Source: Salinisphaera orenii subsp. halophila YIM 95161 | GTDB taxonomy: Bacteria; Pseudomonadota; Gammaproteobacteria; Nevskiales; Salinisphaeraceae | NCBI RefSeq assembly: GCF_003732545.1 | Contig: NZ_AYKF01000110.1 | Location: 1 to 64,000 of the forward strand | Direction of reading: 5' to 3' | Length of the DNA: 64,000 bases | In this document: piece by piece, positions 40-22,804 of the stretch | Position numbering within the stretch: the stretch's first letter is position 1 | Layout of the letters: every line of letters begins with the position of its first letter | The notes under the pieces: generated by a model | What the model was told of the DNA's origin: nothing | What the model saw: only the letters and a program-made list of their open reading frames with translations | The model's database searches: none | Position numbers and translations under genes: made by a program

Positions 40-1494
40 CTAGAAGTTGTAGATCGCCGAGGCCTGCACCGTATCGGCGTCGGCGTCGAGGCCGTTCTGC
101 TGCTCGTAGTCCACGTGGTTGTACTCGATACCGACGGTGAACGGATCCACCGGCGTGTACAGCAGGTTGACCGCCAGCGAGGACGACTCGTCGTGGAGAT
201 CCCCGGTATCGAAGGCGGCGTCGTCCGGATCCTCGGAGTAGGCCTGACCGTAGACCAGATTGGTGGTCCACTTCTCGGCCAGATCCTGCGAGATCGTGCC
301 GATGAAGCCCCACTGCCTGATCGGCTCTAGATCGCCGTCGCTGGTCACGTAGCCGTCCGGGGCGCCGGCGGGGGCATAGATGTACTTGGCGATGCCTTCA
401 CCGCCGGAGACGGTCGCCATGAGCGTCGTGCCGGTCGGCAGACTCCAGCTCGCACCGGCATCCAAACCCCATGCGAATGTGCTCTCCTCACCGGAATCGA
501 AACCGTATGACGCAACGGTATTACCATCCGCGTCTACCGTTTCACTAAGCACATCGCCCTGCAGCTTCCGGGCCACGCCCGCGAACTGGAAGCTGAAGCT
601 GTCAGTGGGCGCCGCCTTGTAGCGGAACGTGAAGTCCGGCAGCGGCTGATCGGTATCATCGATCGCGTTGCTGTCCGCGGTGGACCCGAAACCGACGTTC
701 GCGACGTTGTTATCGTCCGGACCGAAGAAGCCCTGGCCCTGCGGCGCCTCGAGGGCGACGTCCAGCGAGCTGTCCTCGGAAAGATCGAAGGTGTAGCGCA
801 CCTGGGCCTGACGCTCGAACAGCTGGGCCTGCGGGCCGTAGAAGTTGAGCATCGTGCCGTAGTTGAAGTCCGAGAAGGTGGACCAGTCGCGGCCGATCAG
901 CCAGTTGCCCAGCGTCAAATAGGCGCGGCGCACGCGCGGCTGCGGGCCGGTGTCGAAGCCGAAGTCGCCGCGGCCGTAGAAGTCCATCTCGATATAGCCG
1001 CCGAGGTCGCCAAGGGCCGTGGGCGTGGTCGTGGCCAGCTTGAGCCGCGTCTGCTTGACGGTGGCACCGAGGGTCTCGTCGCCCGGGCTGTCGGTGCCTT
1101 CGGCGAGGCGGGTGCCGATCGCATCGGACGGGCCGAGCGAGGCGCCGTAGTCGTCCTCGAAGCCGTACACGGCGTCGGCCTTGATGTAACCGGTCAGCTC
1201 GATGGTGGTGTTGCCCACCTTGAAGCCGGATGCGTCGTCATCGGAGGCGGACGTCTCCGCGGCGGCCTGTTCGGCCTGTTCCGCACGCTGTTCGGTGCGC
1301 TGCTGCTGGGCCTGCAGATCGTTGAAACGGCCCTGCAACTCCTGGATCTGCTGACGCAGTTCCTGCATCTGCTGCTGCTGGCTCTGCGCCGCGGCCGGCA
1401 TGGCCGAGAACAACAGCGGTACGGCGATGGTCGTGCCCAGTACGCCGCGGACGGCTGCGCCCACACGCGTGGTGCGCTTCGGTGTCGTGCTCAT
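40..1494 (-). CDS. DcaP-like outer-membrane porin
   Basis: Predicted 484-residue outer-membrane channel of the DcaP-like trimeric porin type, which in relatives admits small anionic solutes. A signal peptide (basic MSTTPKRTTRVG, hydrophobic core, AAA-Q cleavage near residue 36) is followed by a Gln/Glu-rich coiled coil at about residues 38-76, an Asp-rich linker, and a barrel beginning near the GYIKADAVYGF strand. The last residue is Phe, as expected for BAM-dependent barrels. A longer frame exists upstream, but the ATG at 1492-1494 was chosen because it gives the signal peptide and has a GGGAG Shine-Dalgarno 6 nt away. That Shine-Dalgarno is perfectly complementary over 11 nt to the sRNAs at 19.1-19.65 kb. 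Substrate unknown. Confidence 0.88.
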   Translation of the reverse strand: MSTTPKRTTRVGAAVRGVLGTTIAVPLLFSAMPAAAQSQQQQMQELRQQIQELQGRFNDLQAQQQRTEQRAEQAEQAAAETSASDDDASGFKVGNTTIELTGYIKADAVYGFEDDYGASLGPSDAIGTRLAEGTDSPGDETLGATVKQTRLKLATTTPTALGDLGGYIEMDFYGRGDFGFDTGPQPRVRRAYLTLGNWLIGRDWSTFSDFNYGTMLNFYGPQAQLFERQAQVRYTFDLSEDSSLDVALEAPQGQGFFGPDDNNVANVGFGSTADSNAIDDTDQPLPDFTFRYKAAPTDSFSFQFAGVARKLQGDVLSETVDADGNTVASYGFDSGEESTFAWGLDAGASWSLPTGTTLMATVSGGEGIAKYIYAPAGAPDGYVTSDGDLEPIRQWGFIGTISQDLAEKWTTNLVYGQAYSEDPDDAAFDTGDLHDESSSLAVNLLYTPVDPFTVGIEYNHVDYEQQNGLDADADTVQASAIYNF

Positions 1495-1496
1495 GA

Positions 1497-1507
1497 TTTT
1501 CTCCCTG
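1497..1507 (-). promoter_or_regulatory. Porin Shine-Dalgarno and predicted sRNA pairing site
   Basis: Read on the minus strand this is CAGGGAGAAAA, which includes the GGGAG ribosome-binding site of the porin mRNA. It is the exact complement of the 11-nt loop segment UUUUCUCCCUG present in each of three small RNAs at 19190-19200, 19433-19443 and 19618-19628. Pairing here would block 30S binding. The complementarity is seen in the sequence; the regulatory effect is inference. Confidence 0.6.
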
Positions 1508-18132: not shown

Positions 18133-18744
18133 ATGAGTGCGCTCCACATCAACGACTTCAATCACATGCGATTCGTGTGCTCCGCGCCCACGCCCCGCGC
18201 CTTTCCGGCGCCCGCGGGCCCGGAAATCGCATTCGCCGGGCGCTCCAACGCCGGCAAGTCGAGCGCACTGAACGCCATCTGCGGGCGCACGGGCCTGGCG
18301 CGCACGAGCAAGACGCCGGGGCGCACTCAGGCGATCAACTTCTTCGTGGGCGAGGCCCTGTGCTTCGCCGATCTGCCCGGCTACGGCTATGCCCGGGTGC
18401 CGCCGAAGACCAAGGCCGCCTGGCAGGCGCTCATCGAGCACTACCTCGGTCAGCGCGAGCCGCTGGCCGGCGTGGTGCTCATCATGGACGCGCGCCGGCC
18501 GCTGACCGATTTCGATCGCCAGCTGCTCGAATGGGGCGGCGCCTACGGGCTGGCCTTTCACCTGGTGCTGACCAAGGCGGATAAGCTGCCCCGGAGCCAG
18601 CAGATCGAGGCGCTGCGGGGCGTGGGGCGCAGGGTCGACGGTGCCAGCGCGCAGCTGTTCTCGGCCAGCAAGCGTTTCGGCATCGACGAGGCGCGCGAGA
18701 CGATTGCGGCGCTGGCGTATCCGCCGGACGTCGACGACTTGTAA
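18133..18744 (+). CDS. engB: Ribosome biogenesis GTPase YsxC/EngB
   Basis: 203-residue essential GTPase for 50S assembly. G1 GRSNAGKSS, G2 region TSKTPGRTQ, G3 DLPGYGYA, G4 TKADK and G5 SASKR are all present. ATG at 18133-18135 starts MSALHINDF and gives the family's usual length; the open frame extends back through the cytochrome gene but has no family similarity there. Its stop codon lies on the edge of a Fur-like box serving the next gene. The engB-polA neighbourhood is the same as in E. coli and Pseudomonas. Confidence 0.93.
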   Translation: MSALHINDFNHMRFVCSAPTPRAFPAPAGPEIAFAGRSNAGKSSALNAICGRTGLARTSKTPGRTQAINFFVGEALCFADLPGYGYARVPPKTKAAWQALIEHYLGQREPLAGVVLIMDARRPLTDFDRQLLEWGGAYGLAFHLVLTKADKLPRSQQIEALRGVGRRVDGASAQLFSASKRFGIDEARETIAALAYPPDVDDL

Positions 18745-18769
18745 ATGAGAATCATTCCTATGTATTCTC
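18741..18769 (+). promoter_or_regulatory. Fur-box-like operator
   Basis: Positions 18741-18759 match the 19-bp Fur consensus at 13 positions (core AATGAGAATCATT). A wider inverted repeat GAGAAT (18747-18752) / ATTCTC (18764-18769) surrounds it. It lies 30-58 bp before the small gene at 18799, a typical repressor position. Iron control is inference. Confidence 0.55.
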
Positions 18770-18798
18770 GAATCGCCATCCACCAGAGGGCGATCACA

Positions 18799-19002
18799 AT
18801 GGCGTACGACATCAAGGCATGGCTCGATCGTGAAGGCTCGCCGCGGCTCGAGATTCTCGACGCCGAGTCGGGCACCCTGCGCATGGCCTGGGACGCCCGC
18901 GAACACCGCTCCCAGGCGATCAAATCGCTGTTCCATGAGCTCATGTTGCTGAGCCTGCGCGACCAACTCGTTGATTCGACCGGTGTTTCTCCGCCGCGAT
19001 GA
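18799..19002 (+). CDS. Small protein downstream of a Fur-like box
   Basis: 67-residue soluble protein, no signal peptide or membrane segment. It starts MAYDIKAWLDREG and ends with a helical SQAIKSLFHELMLLSLRDQL and a short polar tail. ATG at 18799 was chosen over one 18 codons upstream because AGAGGG lies 8 nt before it. No family recognised; it is not HemP- or Bfd-like by eye. The Fur-like box upstream suggests induction under iron limitation. Followed by a strong terminator. Confidence 0.65.
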   Translation: MAYDIKAWLDREGSPRLEILDAESGTLRMAWDAREHRSQAIKSLFHELMLLSLRDQLVDSTGVSPPR

Positions 19003-19037: not shown

Positions 19038-19073
19038 AAACCGGCGCCGTCGAGTCGACGCGCCGGTTTTTCT
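19038..19073 (+). terminator. Intrinsic terminator of engB-small gene unit
   Basis: 9-bp stem AAACCGGCG (19038-19046) / CGCCGGTTT (19061-19069), with a smaller stem in the loop, followed by a T run to 19072. Oriented for plus-strand transcription. Confidence 0.85.
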
Positions 19074-19110
19074 GTGTCATAAATAGCCGAGATCGCTGAT
19101 TGCTCAGGGA

Positions 19111-19222
19111 TAAAAAAGCCCCGACGGCAGGGGGAATACCGTCGGGGCGATTCATCCGGTCTGGGGAGACCGGATTCGGGGTTACCGCTCAGGGAGAAAA
19201 GCGGGCAAGCCTTGCGCTTGCA
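19111..19222 (-). ncRNA. Sigma-E-type small RNA, copy 1 (ErsA/Spot 42 slot)
   Basis: About 112 nt. On the minus strand: hairpin 1 GCAAGC-gcaag-GCTTGC (19205-19221); hairpin 2 CCGCT...AGCGG with loop containing UUUUCUCCCUG (19190-19200); hairpin 3, a perfect 9-bp stem ATCCGGTCT/AGACCGGAT with a CCCC loop (19154-19175); terminator stem 19118-19148 with C-rich loop, then a U tract (19111-19117). Preceded by its own promoter. Last of three tandem copies, farthest from polA. It lies in the polA-engB interval used by Spot 42 in enterics. Identity as an ErsA relative is inferred from location, promoter type and C-rich loops. Confidence 0.85.
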
Positions 19223-19227
19223 AGACA

Positions 19228-19255
19228 TGAGACCGGCACCGTCGCGAAGAGTTCC
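19228..19255 (-). promoter_or_regulatory. Sigma-E/AlgU-type promoter of sRNA copy 1
   Basis: Minus strand GGAACTC (19249-19255), 16-nt spacer, TCTCA (19228-19232). The -35 element matches the GAACTT-type extracytoplasmic consensus; the -10 differs by one base from the TCTGA of the other two copies. Confidence 0.8.
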
Positions 19256-19349
19256 AGCCGGAGGTGAAACTTTTTCGCGGCCGGGTAGAGATTCAAACCG
19301 GACGCCACGCACCGTTTGCACCGGGCACACCGGTGGTTGTGTGGCGCGC

Positions 19350-19465
19350 AAAAAAGAAGCCCCGACGATGGGGGAAACCGTCGGGGCCAATGATCCGGTT
19401 CCGGGGGAAGAACCGGATTGGGGGTTACCGCTCAGGGAGAAAAGCGGGCAGGCATTGCGCCTGCA
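19350..19465 (-). ncRNA. Sigma-E-type small RNA, copy 2
   Basis: About 116 nt, same architecture as copy 1. Hairpin 1 is GCAGGC-gcaat-GCCTGC (19448-19464), a compensated change relative to GCAAGC/GCTTGC. The hairpin 2 loop is identical (19433-19443). Hairpin 3 is ATCCGGTTC/GAACCGGAT (19393-19418), compensated relative to copy 1, with loop UUCCCCCG. Terminator stem GCCCCGACG/CGTCGGGGC (19359-19387), loop with UUUCCCCC, then U tract (19350-19358). The compensated substitutions argue for selection on RNA structure. Confidence 0.85.
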
Positions 19466-19470
19466 TGGAT

Positions 19471-19498
19471 TCAGACAGGGCCGCTGCGGCCGAGTTCC
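19471..19498 (-). promoter_or_regulatory. Sigma-E/AlgU-type promoter of sRNA copy 2
   Basis: Minus strand GGAACTC (19492-19498), 16-nt spacer, TCTGA (19471-19475). The transcript's first hairpin begins 6 nt below the -10 element, as in the other two copies. Confidence 0.85.
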
Positions 19499-19536
19499 CG
19501 CGGGCCCGTGAAAATTTCGGGACCGGGACGACGCGC

Positions 19537-19650
19537 AAAAAGAAACCCCGACGGCAGGGGGAATACCGTCGGGGCAAGCACTCCGGTCTTGGGGGAGAAC
19601 CGGATTGGGTTACCGCTCAGGGAGAAAAGCGGGCAAGCATCGCGCTTACG
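19537..19650 (-). ncRNA. Sigma-E-type small RNA, copy 3 (nearest polA)
   Basis: About 114 nt. Hairpin 1 GTAAGC-gcgat-GCTTGC (19633-19649, one G-U pair); hairpin 2 with the invariant UUUUCUCCCUG loop (19618-19628); hairpin 3 TCCGGT...ACCGGA (19582-19604) with loop containing CUCCCCC; terminator stem 19546-19574 and U-rich tail (19536-19545). First of the three in transcription order, 94 nt after the polA stop. Its AT-rich upstream DNA probably makes its promoter the strongest. Confidence 0.85.
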
Positions 19651-19655
19651 AAATA

Positions 19656-19700
19656 TCAGACCGGCACGGATGCACCGAGTTCCGAAAATTTTCGAAATTT
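19656..19700 (-). promoter_or_regulatory. Sigma-E/AlgU-type promoter with UP-like tract, sRNA copy 3
   Basis: Minus strand GGAACTC (19677-19683), 16-nt spacer, TCTGA (19656-19660). Directly upstream is an A/T tract (about 19684-19705) containing the palindrome CGAAAATTTTCG, resembling an UP element. Copies 1 and 2 have weaker versions of this tract. Confidence 0.85.
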
Positions 19701-19744
19701 TTTTATCCCAGCGAGAACAGTCACCTGGCTGCTATTTCGACGAC

Positions 19745-22447
19745 TCAGTGGGCTTTCTGCCAGTTGTCGGCGATACCGGCCTCCGCCAGCAGCGGCACAT
19801 CCAGCGCGGCCACGCCGCGCATGCGGGCCGCGATCTCGTCGGCCAGCCGTTCGGCCTCAGCGTCCGGCACCTCGAAGACCAGCTCGTCGTGGACCTGCAT
19901 GATCATGCGCGCCGGTTCACCAGAGCTTCGCAACCACGCGTCGACATCGATCATCGCCTTCTTGATCAGATCCGCCGCCGTGCCCTGCAGCGGCGCGTTG
20001 ATCGCCGCACGCTCCGCCCCCTGACGGCGCGCGCCGTTGCGTGAGTTGATCTCCGGCAGGTACAGCCGGCGACCGTAGAGCGTTTCGACGTAGCCGTCGG
20101 CCCGCGCGCGTTCGCGCGTCGCGTCCATGTAACGACGCACGCCGGCGAAGCGCTCGAAAAAGCGCTCGATGTAGGCGCCCGCGTTCTCGCGCGAGGTCTC
20201 GAGCTGCTTGGCGAGACCGTAGGCCGACATGCCGTACATCAGCCCGAAGTTGATCGCCTTGGCGGCGCGCCGCTGGTCGGCGCTCACCTCGGCCGGCGAC
20301 GTGTCGAAGACCTCGGCGGCGGTCGCGGCGTGGATGTCGCGCTCCTCGTTGAAGGCGGCCAGCAGCCCGGGATCGCCCGACAGATGCGCCATGATCCGCA
20401 GTTCGATCTGGGAATAGTCCACGGCCAGGATCTTGTGGCCCGGGGGCGCGATGAACGCCTCGCGGATGCGCCGGCCGGCCTCGGTGCGGATGGGGATGTT
20501 CTGCAGGTTGGGATCGGACGACGACAGCCGGCCGGTGGCGGCCACCGCCTGGTGATAGGAGGTGTGGATGCGCCCGGTGTCCGGATTGATCTGGGTCGGC
20601 AGCTTGTCGGCGTAGGTCGAGCGCAGCTTCGACAGCTCGCGCCAGTCGACGATCATCGCCGGCAGTGTGTGCCGGTCGGCGAGCTCGCGCAGCACGTCCT
20701 CGGCGGTCGACGGCGCGCCCTTGGGCGTCTTGCGGATCACGGGCAGTTCGAGCCGGTCGAACAGGATCTCCTTGAGCTGGGCCGGCGAGCCCAGATTGAA
20801 CTCGCCGCCCGCGGCCTCGAAGGCGGCCGTCTGGACCGCCTGCATCCGCTCGGCCATTTCCCGGCTGACCCGGCCCAGCAGATCGCGGTCGACGAGCACG
20901 CCGTTGGCCTCGACGCGGGCGAGCACGGGCATCAGCGGCATCTCGATGTCCTCGTAGAGCGCCTTGAGTCGCTGGCTTTCGCCCAGCTCGCCGTAGAGCC
21001 GCCGATGCAGCTGCAGCGTGATGTCGGCGTCCTCCGCGGCGTAGGGCGTGGCGACGTCCAGCGCCACCTGGTTGAAGGTGATCTGCTTGGCGCCCTTGCC
21101 GGCGACGTCCTCGAACTTGGTGGTGCTGCGCTGGAGGTAGCGCTGGGCCAGCGAGTCCATGTCGTGACGCGTGGCCGTGCTGTTGAGCACATAGGACTCC
21201 AGCATCGTGTCGTGATCCAGCCCGGCCATGTCTACGCCGTGGCGGCGCAGGACGTTGACGTCGTACTTGATGTGCTGGCCGAGCTTGGAAACGGCGGGGT
21301 CCTCCAGCACGGCGCGCACCCGGTCGATGACGGTCTGCCGATCGAGCTGCTCCGGTGCGCCCATGTAGTCGTGGGCCACCGGCACATACCAGGCCTCGCC
21401 CGGCTCGACGGCGAAGGACAGACCAACCAGATTCGAGGCCATCGCCGAGAGCGAATCGGTCTCGGTGTCCACGCAGATCAGGTCGGCGGCCTCCAGCCTG
21501 GCCATCATCGCCTCGAGCGCGTCGACATCGAGCACGGTGTGATAGTGCGTTTCGGCCGGCGCCTCGGGCGTGCCGGGAGACGCCGGCGCGGCCTCCATGT
21601 CCTCGAGGAACTTGTGAAAGGCGTAGCCGCGATAGAGCTCGGCGAGCCGTTCGCGATCGGCCGCGCCGCGGGTGAGCGCCGTACCGGCCGCGCCGAGGTC
21701 CAGATCGCAGCGGATCGTGGCCAGATCCTTGTACAGCGGCAGATCGTCCAGGGCGGCACGCAGATTGTCGGCGACCTTGCCGCCGATGGCGTCCGCGTGC
21801 GCGATCACGCCTTCCAGCGAACCGTACTGATCCAGCCACTTGGCCGCGGTCTTGGGCCCGACCTTGGGCACGCCGGGAATATTGTCGGAACTGTCGCCGA
21901 CGAGGGCGAGATAGTCGGTGATCAGCGCCGGGCCCACGCCGAACTTCTCGTGCACGCGGGCGACGTCGGTGCGCTTGTCCTGCATCGTGTCGAGCAGGTG
22001 CACGCGCTCGTCGACGAGCTGGGCCATGTCCTTGTCGCCGGTCACGATCAGCACCTCGCCGGTATCGCGTGCCGCGAGCGTGCCGATGACGTCGTCGGCC
22101 TCGACGCCGTCGATCTGCAACAGGGGCAGACCGAGGGCGACCACGACCTCGCGGATGCCGGCGAACTGCGCCGAGAGCTCCTCGGGCACCGGCGGGCGGT
22201 TGGCCTTGTAGTCGGCGAACAGCTCGTTGCGGAACGTGGGCCCGCGGGGATCGAAGACCACCACGATGCGGTCCGATTCGTATTCGCGCAGGAACTTGCG
22301 CAGCATGTTGGTCATGCCGTAGATCGCGCCCGTGGGCTCGCCGTCGGCGTTGGTCAGCGGCGGCAGCACGTGATAGGCGCGATACAGCCACGACGAGCCG
22401 TCGATGAGAATCAGCGGCCCGCCGGCGGGCGCGGTGTCTTGGGGCAT
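19745..22447 (-). CDS. polA: DNA polymerase I
   Basis: 900-residue repair and Okazaki-fragment polymerase. The 5'-3' exonuclease domain (about 1-290) begins LILIDGSSWLYRAYH; the 3'-5' exonuclease domain shows VDTETDS with the catalytic D-x-E and appears active; the polymerase domain has DYSQIELRIMAHLSGD and QVHDELVFEV. ATG at 22445-22447 (MPQDTAP) gives standard length; the frame upstream has no similarity. Its 3' end leads straight into the sRNA array on the same strand with no terminator seen between, so some read-through is possible. Confidence 0.95.
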   Translation of the reverse strand: MPQDTAPAGGPLILIDGSSWLYRAYHVLPPLTNADGEPTGAIYGMTNMLRKFLREYESDRIVVVFDPRGPTFRNELFADYKANRPPVPEELSAQFAGIREVVVALGLPLLQIDGVEADDVIGTLAARDTGEVLIVTGDKDMAQLVDERVHLLDTMQDKRTDVARVHEKFGVGPALITDYLALVGDSSDNIPGVPKVGPKTAAKWLDQYGSLEGVIAHADAIGGKVADNLRAALDDLPLYKDLATIRCDLDLGAAGTALTRGAADRERLAELYRGYAFHKFLEDMEAAPASPGTPEAPAETHYHTVLDVDALEAMMARLEAADLICVDTETDSLSAMASNLVGLSFAVEPGEAWYVPVAHDYMGAPEQLDRQTVIDRVRAVLEDPAVSKLGQHIKYDVNVLRRHGVDMAGLDHDTMLESYVLNSTATRHDMDSLAQRYLQRSTTKFEDVAGKGAKQITFNQVALDVATPYAAEDADITLQLHRRLYGELGESQRLKALYEDIEMPLMPVLARVEANGVLVDRDLLGRVSREMAERMQAVQTAAFEAAGGEFNLGSPAQLKEILFDRLELPVIRKTPKGAPSTAEDVLRELADRHTLPAMIVDWRELSKLRSTYADKLPTQINPDTGRIHTSYHQAVAATGRLSSSDPNLQNIPIRTEAGRRIREAFIAPPGHKILAVDYSQIELRIMAHLSGDPGLLAAFNEERDIHAATAAEVFDTSPAEVSADQRRAAKAINFGLMYGMSAYGLAKQLETSRENAGAYIERFFERFAGVRRYMDATRERARADGYVETLYGRRLYLPEINSRNGARRQGAERAAINAPLQGTAADLIKKAMIDVDAWLRSSGEPARMIMQVHDELVFEVPDAEAERLADEIAARMRGVAALDVPLLAEAGIADNWQKAH

Positions 22448-22804
22448 GGCAGTCACGAAGGTCGATGCGCCGACAGGCGAACCGGCCGGCGGGGAAACAT
22501 GGAGGCACCAGCTTAACGCGGTCGTCGCCGGTCGTTCTCGGCCCGGACGCCGGAACAGCGCAATGCGGTCGTCGTCGTCCGATGCTTGCCACTCGCCGCG
22601 GGCGCTCGGCCGGACACCCGAATCACCGGGGAGGCCCGCTGTTCCCGTCGTCAGGACCAGCAGCACCGGCACCTCTGCGGCCTCGCTCGGACCGGGCATC
22701 GCCGCCGGCCGCGGCGATTCCGCGATACGCGTGCGCGCTCTTCGGCTAGCCGTCACCTGACGCGTCGGCCCGCCCGGCAGAGCATTCGCGCGGCCGCAGC
22801 GGTC
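22448..22804. other. Gene-free stretch between lysA and polA
   Basis: About 357 bp without a recognisable gene, terminator or RNA. It must hold the polA promoter, but no convincing -35/-10 pair was identified. Confidence 0.5.

Follow-up and report, generated by a model that had tools for sequence, protein, structure and literature searches.

A tandem array of putative sigma-E-type small RNAs in Salinisphaera whose loop is complementary to the Shine-Dalgarno sequence of a DcaP-type porin

MicA and RybB are small RNAs (sRNAs) that repress porin/OMP mRNAs at the 5' region in a sigma-E-dependent manner; their loci, sequences and seeds, as well as those of VrrA, differ from those of the array described in this work. 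A sigma-E-dependent repression of an OMP mRNA at its 5' region is also described for VrrA in the accessible part of the corresponding report (PMC2628432). The closest parallels in mode of action seem to be the effect of ErsA on oprD, that of sX13 on G-rich ribosome-binding sites (RBSs) and that of LhrC on a GGGAG Shine-Dalgarno (SD) sequence. ErsA, which is encoded in the polA-engB intergenic region (PMC8575079), is under the control of the envelope-stress sigma factor AlgU and represses the porin oprD with Hfq (PMC8395346, PMC7264166), as stated in the accessible parts of these papers. According to the accessible text on sX13 (PMC3771888), this RNA lies 175 bp downstream of polA, a slot that is also occupied by Spot 42, and folds into three stem-loops, whose C-rich loops repress translation by pairing with G-rich motifs close to the start codon; it regulates virulence, motility and the hfq mRNA, is independent of Hfq and is described there as exclusive to Xanthomonadaceae. 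The LhrC1-5 RNAs of Listeria monocytogenes are multicopy, are induced by cell-envelope stress and use UCCC motifs to bind an mRNA for a cell-wall protein at the GGGAG of its SD (PMC4132741, accessible part), thus working like the circuit predicted here; however, they belong to an unrelated phylum and are controlled by the two-component system LisRK, the likeness considered here being one of mode of action. Lastly, anti-hemB (RF02837), that is, the Burkholderia RNA 7 or ncS04 of B. cenocepacia, is reported to bind Hfq, and its expression change is not significant in the qPCR table (PMC5688073, in the part of the paper that is accessible).

The window, i.e., the whole stretch of 64,000 nucleotides of Salinisphaera orenii subsp. 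halophila YIM 95161 analysed in this work, harbors three predicted tandem sRNA genes on the minus strand, and we consider it probable that this sigma-E-type array represses the translation of envelope proteins, a DcaP-type porin being the best-scoring of the 19 targets examined. The three copies span approximately 19536..19651, 19350..19466 and 19110..19223 (minus strand), the ends of copy 1 being placed from its promoter and terminator. Each unit comprises, in this order, a short hairpin, a loop hairpin CCGCUU-UUCUCCCU-GAGCGG, a CCGG hairpin and a strong intrinsic terminator with a U-rich tail (19545..19575, 19358..19388 and 19118..19148 in copies 1, 2 and 3, respectively, minus strand). The preliminary description of this DNA had considered the entire 11-nt segment that faces the porin mRNA (19618-19628, 19433-19443 and 19190-19200) as a single-stranded loop; the base-pair probabilities of the predicted fold agree with this for the eight bases UUCUCCCU (19619..19626, 19434..19441 and 19191..19198, minus strand), whose probability of being unpaired is about 1.0, whereas the first UU and the last G form the top of the stem CCGCUU/GAGCGG. 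The same description was mistaken in regarding this segment as the only one identical in every copy, since the three copies share an uninterrupted identical run of about 29 nt, TGCCCGCTTTTCTCCCTGAGCGGTAACCC.

The motif GGAACTC-N16-TCTGA/TCTCA, which resembles the sigma-E consensus, precedes all three copies, at 19656..19683 (TCTGA form, copy 1), 19471..19498 (copy 2) and 19228..19255 (TCTCA form, copy 3) of the minus strand. The exact pattern GGAACT-N16-18-TCTGA occurs at only four sites in the genome, two of which are sRNA promoters, and the sequence upstream of rpoE, GAACT-N17-TCCATA, is similar in form and spacing without being the exact pattern; the genes for both RpoE and Hfq are present. 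The motif ahead of the three copies suggests that they may be under sigma-E control, while the few exact sites and the inexact form upstream of rpoE speak against it. Upstream of the array, on the same strand, lies polA (DNA polymerase I, 19745..22756, start unsettled), whose part 19745-22453 matches Pfam DNA_pol_A with an E-value of 1.8e-158, and an engB-type GTPase gene is found at 18187..18744 of the plus strand (start chosen; Pfam MMR_HSR1, E 6.5e-16), its name being assigned from the GRSNAGKS motif and the slot. A small ORF of 65 or 85 aa (18745-19002, plus strand) is located between the array and engB; its 65-aa form has no Pfam match and shows a weak NCBIfam hit to the PA4570 family, below the cut-off.

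No Rfam family matches the window at the gathering cut-offs. The best Rfam E-values (1e-6 to 5e-6) were obtained with anti-hemB, for which the copies score 36.0, 35.7 and 33.7 bits (gathering 49.5), and sX13 (RF02232) gave 38.0, 35.0 and 33.7 bits (gathering 50). Since these scores fall below both cut-offs, the window RNAs are to be considered outlying relatives of anti-hemB and sX13 rather than members of either family. The cmscan alignment and the fold indicate that anti-hemB and the window RNAs have in common a 5' hairpin with a CUCCCUGAGCGG arm, a second hairpin and a terminator; the hairpin of anti-hemB, with consensus CCGCuUCuCCUCCCUGaGCGGG, is common to the window RNAs; as for the engB/hemB linkage of anti-hemB loci, what is seen in the window is engB near the array. 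Unlike anti-hemB, the array is made up of tandem copies (3-6 in the genus), preceded by sigma-E-like promoters, and its loop is one base shorter in the alignment. The position directly downstream of polA and the combination of a C-rich loop with a G-rich RBS are shared with sX13, the repression being in our case a prediction; the sX13 loops are of the CCCC type and face 4G motifs (PMC3771888, accessible part), whereas CUCCCU and AGGGAG are found in the window. As for ErsA (Pseudomon-1, RF01719), copy 2 alone scores (21.9 bits versus a gathering cut-off of 50), and the search with this family returned no match in the genome of our strain; the polA-engB slot and, judging from the motif, the sigma-E-type promoter are in common. 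On the array of genome G003 (G and L numbers denote genomes and loci, respectively) the ErsA model reached 37.1 bits with one copy, below the cut-off of 50. The one ErsA match over the cut-off that was examined lies 100 nt after polA and has a GAACTT-type upstream sequence; this gene differs from the array in lacking the CUCCCU hairpin, its surroundings are devoid of an engB motif over 1.5 kb, and the array-family model gives it 17.1 bits. Spot 42 (RF00021) has no match in the window at gathering and is absent among the matches at E 0.1 in the region 19050-19750.

The gene facing the array in the proposed circuit (40..1494, minus strand, ATG start) encodes a protein of 484 aa whose identity as a DcaP-like porin, proposed from the sequence in the preliminary description, holds, in that it matches Pfam DcaP (PF19577, E 2.2e-19) and, using phmmer, the solved DcaP-like protein 6eus (E 2.1e-18). 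The predicted target site CAGGGAGAAAA (1497..1507, minus strand) overlaps the porin SD, AGGGAG (1506..1501, minus strand), which leaves a gap of 6 nt between GGGAG and the ATG (1494..1492); the 3' end of the site is 2 nt ahead of this start codon. The sequence exactly complementary to it, TTTTCTCCCTG, is present three times on the same strand, at 19628..19618, 19443..19433 and 19200..19190 (mean expectation 0.00 in 100 dinucleotide-preserving shuffles of the window), so that the perfect 11-nt match between the porin RBS and all three loops was confirmed. Over both strands of the 3.79 Mb genome, CAGGGAGAAAA was found four times, that is, at the porin site and in the three sRNA loops, and its reversed pattern was not found at all. 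Thus, the many further targets with the same 11-mer that would speak for a generic sequence are absent, one site only lying outside the sRNAs. However, composition and first-order Markov estimates give 0.3-0.6 chance 11-mers per genome, and a single match is for this reason unremarkable; the weight of the 11-mer rests on its position over the SD and on its conservation, and the count by itself is no proof. Moreover, the own genome contains 15 sites with one mismatch, versus 11 sites in total (exact ones included) for the reversed control, and therefore there is no clear excess of near matches.

Orthologues of the porin were found in eight genomes, our strain included, the other seven proteins being 51-82% identical to it. 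The full 11-mer is present at the porin SD in five of the eight (G000, G012, G004, G009 and G005) and CAGGGAGAAA in seven of the eight (own included), while the flanks diverge. The number of contiguous loop pairs is 11 in the window porin and 10-14 wherever the site is retained among the relatives, the match being lengthened to 14 nt, CTCAGGGAGAAAAG, in G005; it falls to 6 in G002, whose RBS (AAGGGAGTTC) keeps AGGGAG alone, most of the match being lost. Among the remote DcaP hits, those of G011 and G013 carry the 10-mer CAGGGAGAAA (GTGACAGGGAGAAACACCATG), and that of G010 has no AGGGAGAA at any listed start. Since G000/G012 and G003/G007 are near pairs, the independent porin lineages are fewer than these counts. 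The RBSs of six other genes of the porin block, compared in 4-7 genomes each with several start codons assigned by in-house scoring, mostly differ, some of them being common to close sub-groups (G003, G005 and G007, plus G009 for one gene).

The genus genomes G001, G006 and G008 have no porin match. In each of them AGGGAGAA is found at the RBS of a gene for another exported protein (L095, L099 and L108), which has a coiled coil predicted at its N-terminus and no Pfam match. A DcaP-like identity of this protein was considered and found unsupported by Pfam, NCBIfam, a PDB search and AlphaFold (mean pLDDT 29.7); it is possibly a replacement outer-membrane protein in these porin-less genomes.

A search for AGGGAGAA followed by ATG within 2-11 nt retrieved 130 sites in 14 genomes, versus 15 for the reversed control. 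One site had been counted twice and seven of G012 were not fetched, which left 122 sites examined, and the removal of 23 with reading frames shorter than 60 aa left 99 genes. According to a crude home-made signal-peptide rule, 60 of these 99 genes encode exported proteins, compared with 9 of 49 genes preceded by AAGGAGAA (Fisher p 8e-7), a control that differs by one base, the one that the loop should distinguish; this control was drawn from 146 sites, 70 of which were fetched non-randomly (30 automatically and 40 picked by hand) and 49 of which had frames of at least 60 aa. The difference persists when one gene per homology cluster is retained (29/62 versus 8/38, p 0.008), and a first, smaller AAGGAGAA control had given 2 exported proteins out of 20. 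The recurrent groups include the porin (nine genomes), lipoproteins of several families (5, 4, 4, 3 and 2 genomes), proteins that by eye are solute-binding-like (four genomes) and TraU (three genomes); DcaP and Porin_4 porins, a TonB-receptor plug domain and an OmpA-family protein are the named candidate targets. The regulatory reach of the sRNAs thus seems to go beyond the porin and to cover a wider set of envelope genes.

These data bear on a different reading, which we regard as unlikely, according to which the sRNAs are generic anti-SD molecules with a C-rich loop suited to purine-rich RBSs in general, the porin match being nothing special. In its favor, AGGGAG-N2-12-ATG occurs 79 times in the own genome versus 24 for the reversed control, the one-mismatch 11-mers are without a clear excess, the loop core is old, being common to Thioalkalivibrio and Gallionellaceae, and the 8-nt site list includes genes that by eye are cytosolic, such as glutamine amidotransferases, response regulators and an ndk-like gene (nucleoside diphosphate kinase), the RBS of which contains AGGGAGAA in four genomes (L134, L144, L155 and L176); because of these cytosolic genes, some AGGGAGAA sites are probably plain SDs. 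Nevertheless, outside the sRNAs no gene other than the porin carries the full 11-mer, the site is kept in the orthologues while the flanks and most neighbouring RBSs diverge, and exported proteins are enriched relative to an SD that differs by a single base. The energies also single out the porin, whose net value of -10.6 kcal/mol is the best of the 19 AGGGAGA genes of the own genome over which the ranking extends, followed by -9.4 and -9.3. These values are loop-anchored pairing energies corrected for the cost of opening the site, a procedure that replaced duplexfold on whole RNAs, which yielded long uninformative duplexes. For the lipoprotein L013 the net energy is +1.2 in spite of a 10-nt match, since the target site is closed.

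A second alternative is that the match combines chance and SD constraint, AGGGAGAAAA being a good SD with an A-rich spacer kept for strong porin translation. Abundant proteins frequently retain a strong RBS, and both the chance expectation and the one-mismatch count, not clearly above that of the reversed pattern, are compatible with this idea; nonetheless, it appears very improbable to us. Indeed, AGGGAG pairs with 16S rRNA less well than AAGGAG or AGGAGG, so that the G would not be retained if SD strength were all that was selected. In addition, nine of ten porins (the eight orthologues plus those of G011 and G013) retain the C ahead of the SD, a base that 16S pairing does not require, and the outgroup porins, i.e., the 19 DcaP-like loci from the other families of the order (L065-L083), mostly have GAGGAG-type SDs. 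In none of these 19 loci does AGGGAGAA precede a listed start, which counts against the proposed circuit; CAGGGAGGAG is found in one of them, L075. The DcaP paralogue of the own genome (L343, G000:C85), with AAAGGGGAGATTC / AAAGGGGAGATTCA ahead of its ATG, fits the loop less well.

As regards the sRNAs themselves, a first covariance model, built on the three window copies, retrieved related sequences from 54 of 61 genomes, counting our own; the promoter had been included in this model, with the consequence that the third hairpin was mis-paired, and yet it was specific enough to find relatives. Arrays of 3-6 copies are present in 13 of the 14 Salinisphaera genomes, the exception being G011 (81% complete), and the end of polA lies upstream of the array in 29 of the 30 loci fetched, own included. 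The array of G006 (S. hydrothermalis) is interrupted, about 1.4 kb separating copies 2 and 3. The array is also carried by a record titled Endozoicomonas sp. G2_2 (L221, NZ_JAGHQU010000005.1), whose organism label looks wrong. The family comprises 54 matches in 16 genomes, 53 of which are copies with CTCCCTGRGCGG, the remaining one being a weak second match in G016. The 20-nt loop core CCGCTTTTCTCCCTGAGCGG is exact in 50 of the 53 copies (16 genomes), G002, G004 and G015 having one inexact copy each; a regular expression requiring TCTCCCTGAGCGG overstates this conservation, and the count was made against the 54 covariance-model matches.

In an alignment of 34 sequences (27 from the family plus 7 from the order), with pairs counted on a structure derived from single-sequence folds, 17 of the 22 stem pairs show double-sided changes and 96.1% of the cells are paired. 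None of 500 shuffles reaches any of the five measures used, and slid structures are 30-45% paired. The signal comes mostly from the terminator and the first hairpin; there is little variation in the loop hairpin, two pairs of which are broken by the alignment in five sequences. The covariation should be read as support and not as proof, since related sequences can beat shuffles without structure. On a larger alignment RNAalifold mis-paired the middle, and model R2 keeps that structure. In other families of the order (L041-L054) CTCCCT also occurs, by eye, in the first hairpin of 11 of 14 loci, which would give two possible seeds per RNA.

The sigma-E-like pattern lies ahead of 44 of the 51 distinct copies, those missed being three of G006 and four of G008. 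That the array consists of terminators or processed polA 3'-UTR pieces, the hairpin serving termination or a protein ligand, would account for its position immediately after polA, in the same orientation, and for the intrinsic terminator closing every unit, but it is hardly credible, given that a promoter-like pattern of their own would be redundant for a 3' UTR, that the loop is near-invariant in sequence and not in structure alone, and that single-copy RNAs in this slot elsewhere are expressed regulators (sX13, PMC3771888; ErsA, PMC8395346 and PMC8575079; accessible parts).

A second model, built from the 34 sequences and whose E-values are rough, gave matches in 137 of the 369 genomes sampled from the class and in 104 of 271 genera, at a per-genome E-value of 0.001 or better; the 137 include three genomes of the genus and another one from the order. 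Inspection of the 27 best-scoring loci outside the order revealed motifs of polA or engB at a distance of up to 1.5 kb in 25, CTCCCT in 26 and an upstream GAAC-N16-20-TCNNA in 20. Some relatives exceed the anti-hemB cut-off, namely, L046 (51.6 bits; one of 7 loci) and L263 and L253 (58.4 and 51.7 bits; two of 20). An exact 18-nt core was found in three Thioalkalivibrio records, 0.7-3.1 kb from an engB motif and in two cases with polA upstream, in a Gallionellaceae MAG near engB and hemB motifs (L225) and in a betaproteobacterial MAG with no polA, engB or hemB motif in its 8 kb. These five loci score 38.5-65.5 bits with the Rfam anti-hemB model, that of Gallionellaceae, with 65.5 bits, being the one over the cut-off; a chance origin of their 18-mers was ruled out by these scores. 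The 18-mer loci of Meiothermus luteus, Bacteroidales and Sphingomonas have no polA or engB motif, and those of Chloroflexi, a second Meiothermus, Mogibacterium, Bacteroidia and Eubacterium were left out of the motif inspection. Since the core is present in Thioalkalivibrio and Gallionellaceae as well, the loop is older than its pairing with the porin.

The match and its uniqueness, the fold support, the array and its slot, the conservation of both site and loop and the enrichment of exported proteins are observations, and the circuit that they delineate would work as follows. The three genes, each from its own sigma-E-type promoter, would be transcribed upon outer-membrane stress, as the motif suggests; each RNA would fold into stem-loops exposing the UUCUCCCU loop, a prediction that covariation supports, and this loop may pair in vivo with the AGGGAGAA-type SD of envelope-protein mRNAs, so blocking ribosome loading and repressing translation, the DcaP-type porin probably being the strongest target among those examined. 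The G of the SD (AGGGAG instead of AAGGAG) would permit the pairing with the loop while the SD is still working. The effects of the three copies are presumably additive, as in a dosage device. Since an hfq gene is present, Hfq may help, although it need not be required. Most computational tests (conservation, energy and promoters) agree with the circuit from an envelope-stress sRNA to the porin SD anticipated in the preliminary description. The circuit is likely and belongs to a familiar category, that of envelope-stress sRNAs repressing a porin, whereas the array is unusual and a wide sRNA family is likely to stand behind it.

A remaining question concerns the extent of this family. At present, sX13, anti-hemB and ErsA are catalogued as separate families. 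We found no published report of the Salinisphaera array, nor of a union of these three RNAs, in a search that mostly left the subscription literature outside. We lean slightly towards the reading that a single ancient family of envelope-stress sRNAs with a CUCCCU hairpin resides in the polA-engB gap of Gammaproteobacteria and extends to Betaproteobacteria, uniting sX13, anti-hemB and possibly ErsA, and that Salinisphaera amplified it to 3-6 copies and rewired the SDs of envelope genes from AAGGAG to AGGGAGAA. According to this same reading, the loop stayed fixed and the SDs were rewired to fit it, and therefore the targets would have evolved towards the sRNA and not the reverse. If these RNAs do form one family, separately named molecules would be tied together, and the target rule, AGGGAGAA at the RBS, would be directly testable. 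To such a family Salinisphaera would add a conserved porin target and a natural copy-number series, from 3 to 6, which might be useful for asking why bacteria multiply one sRNA.
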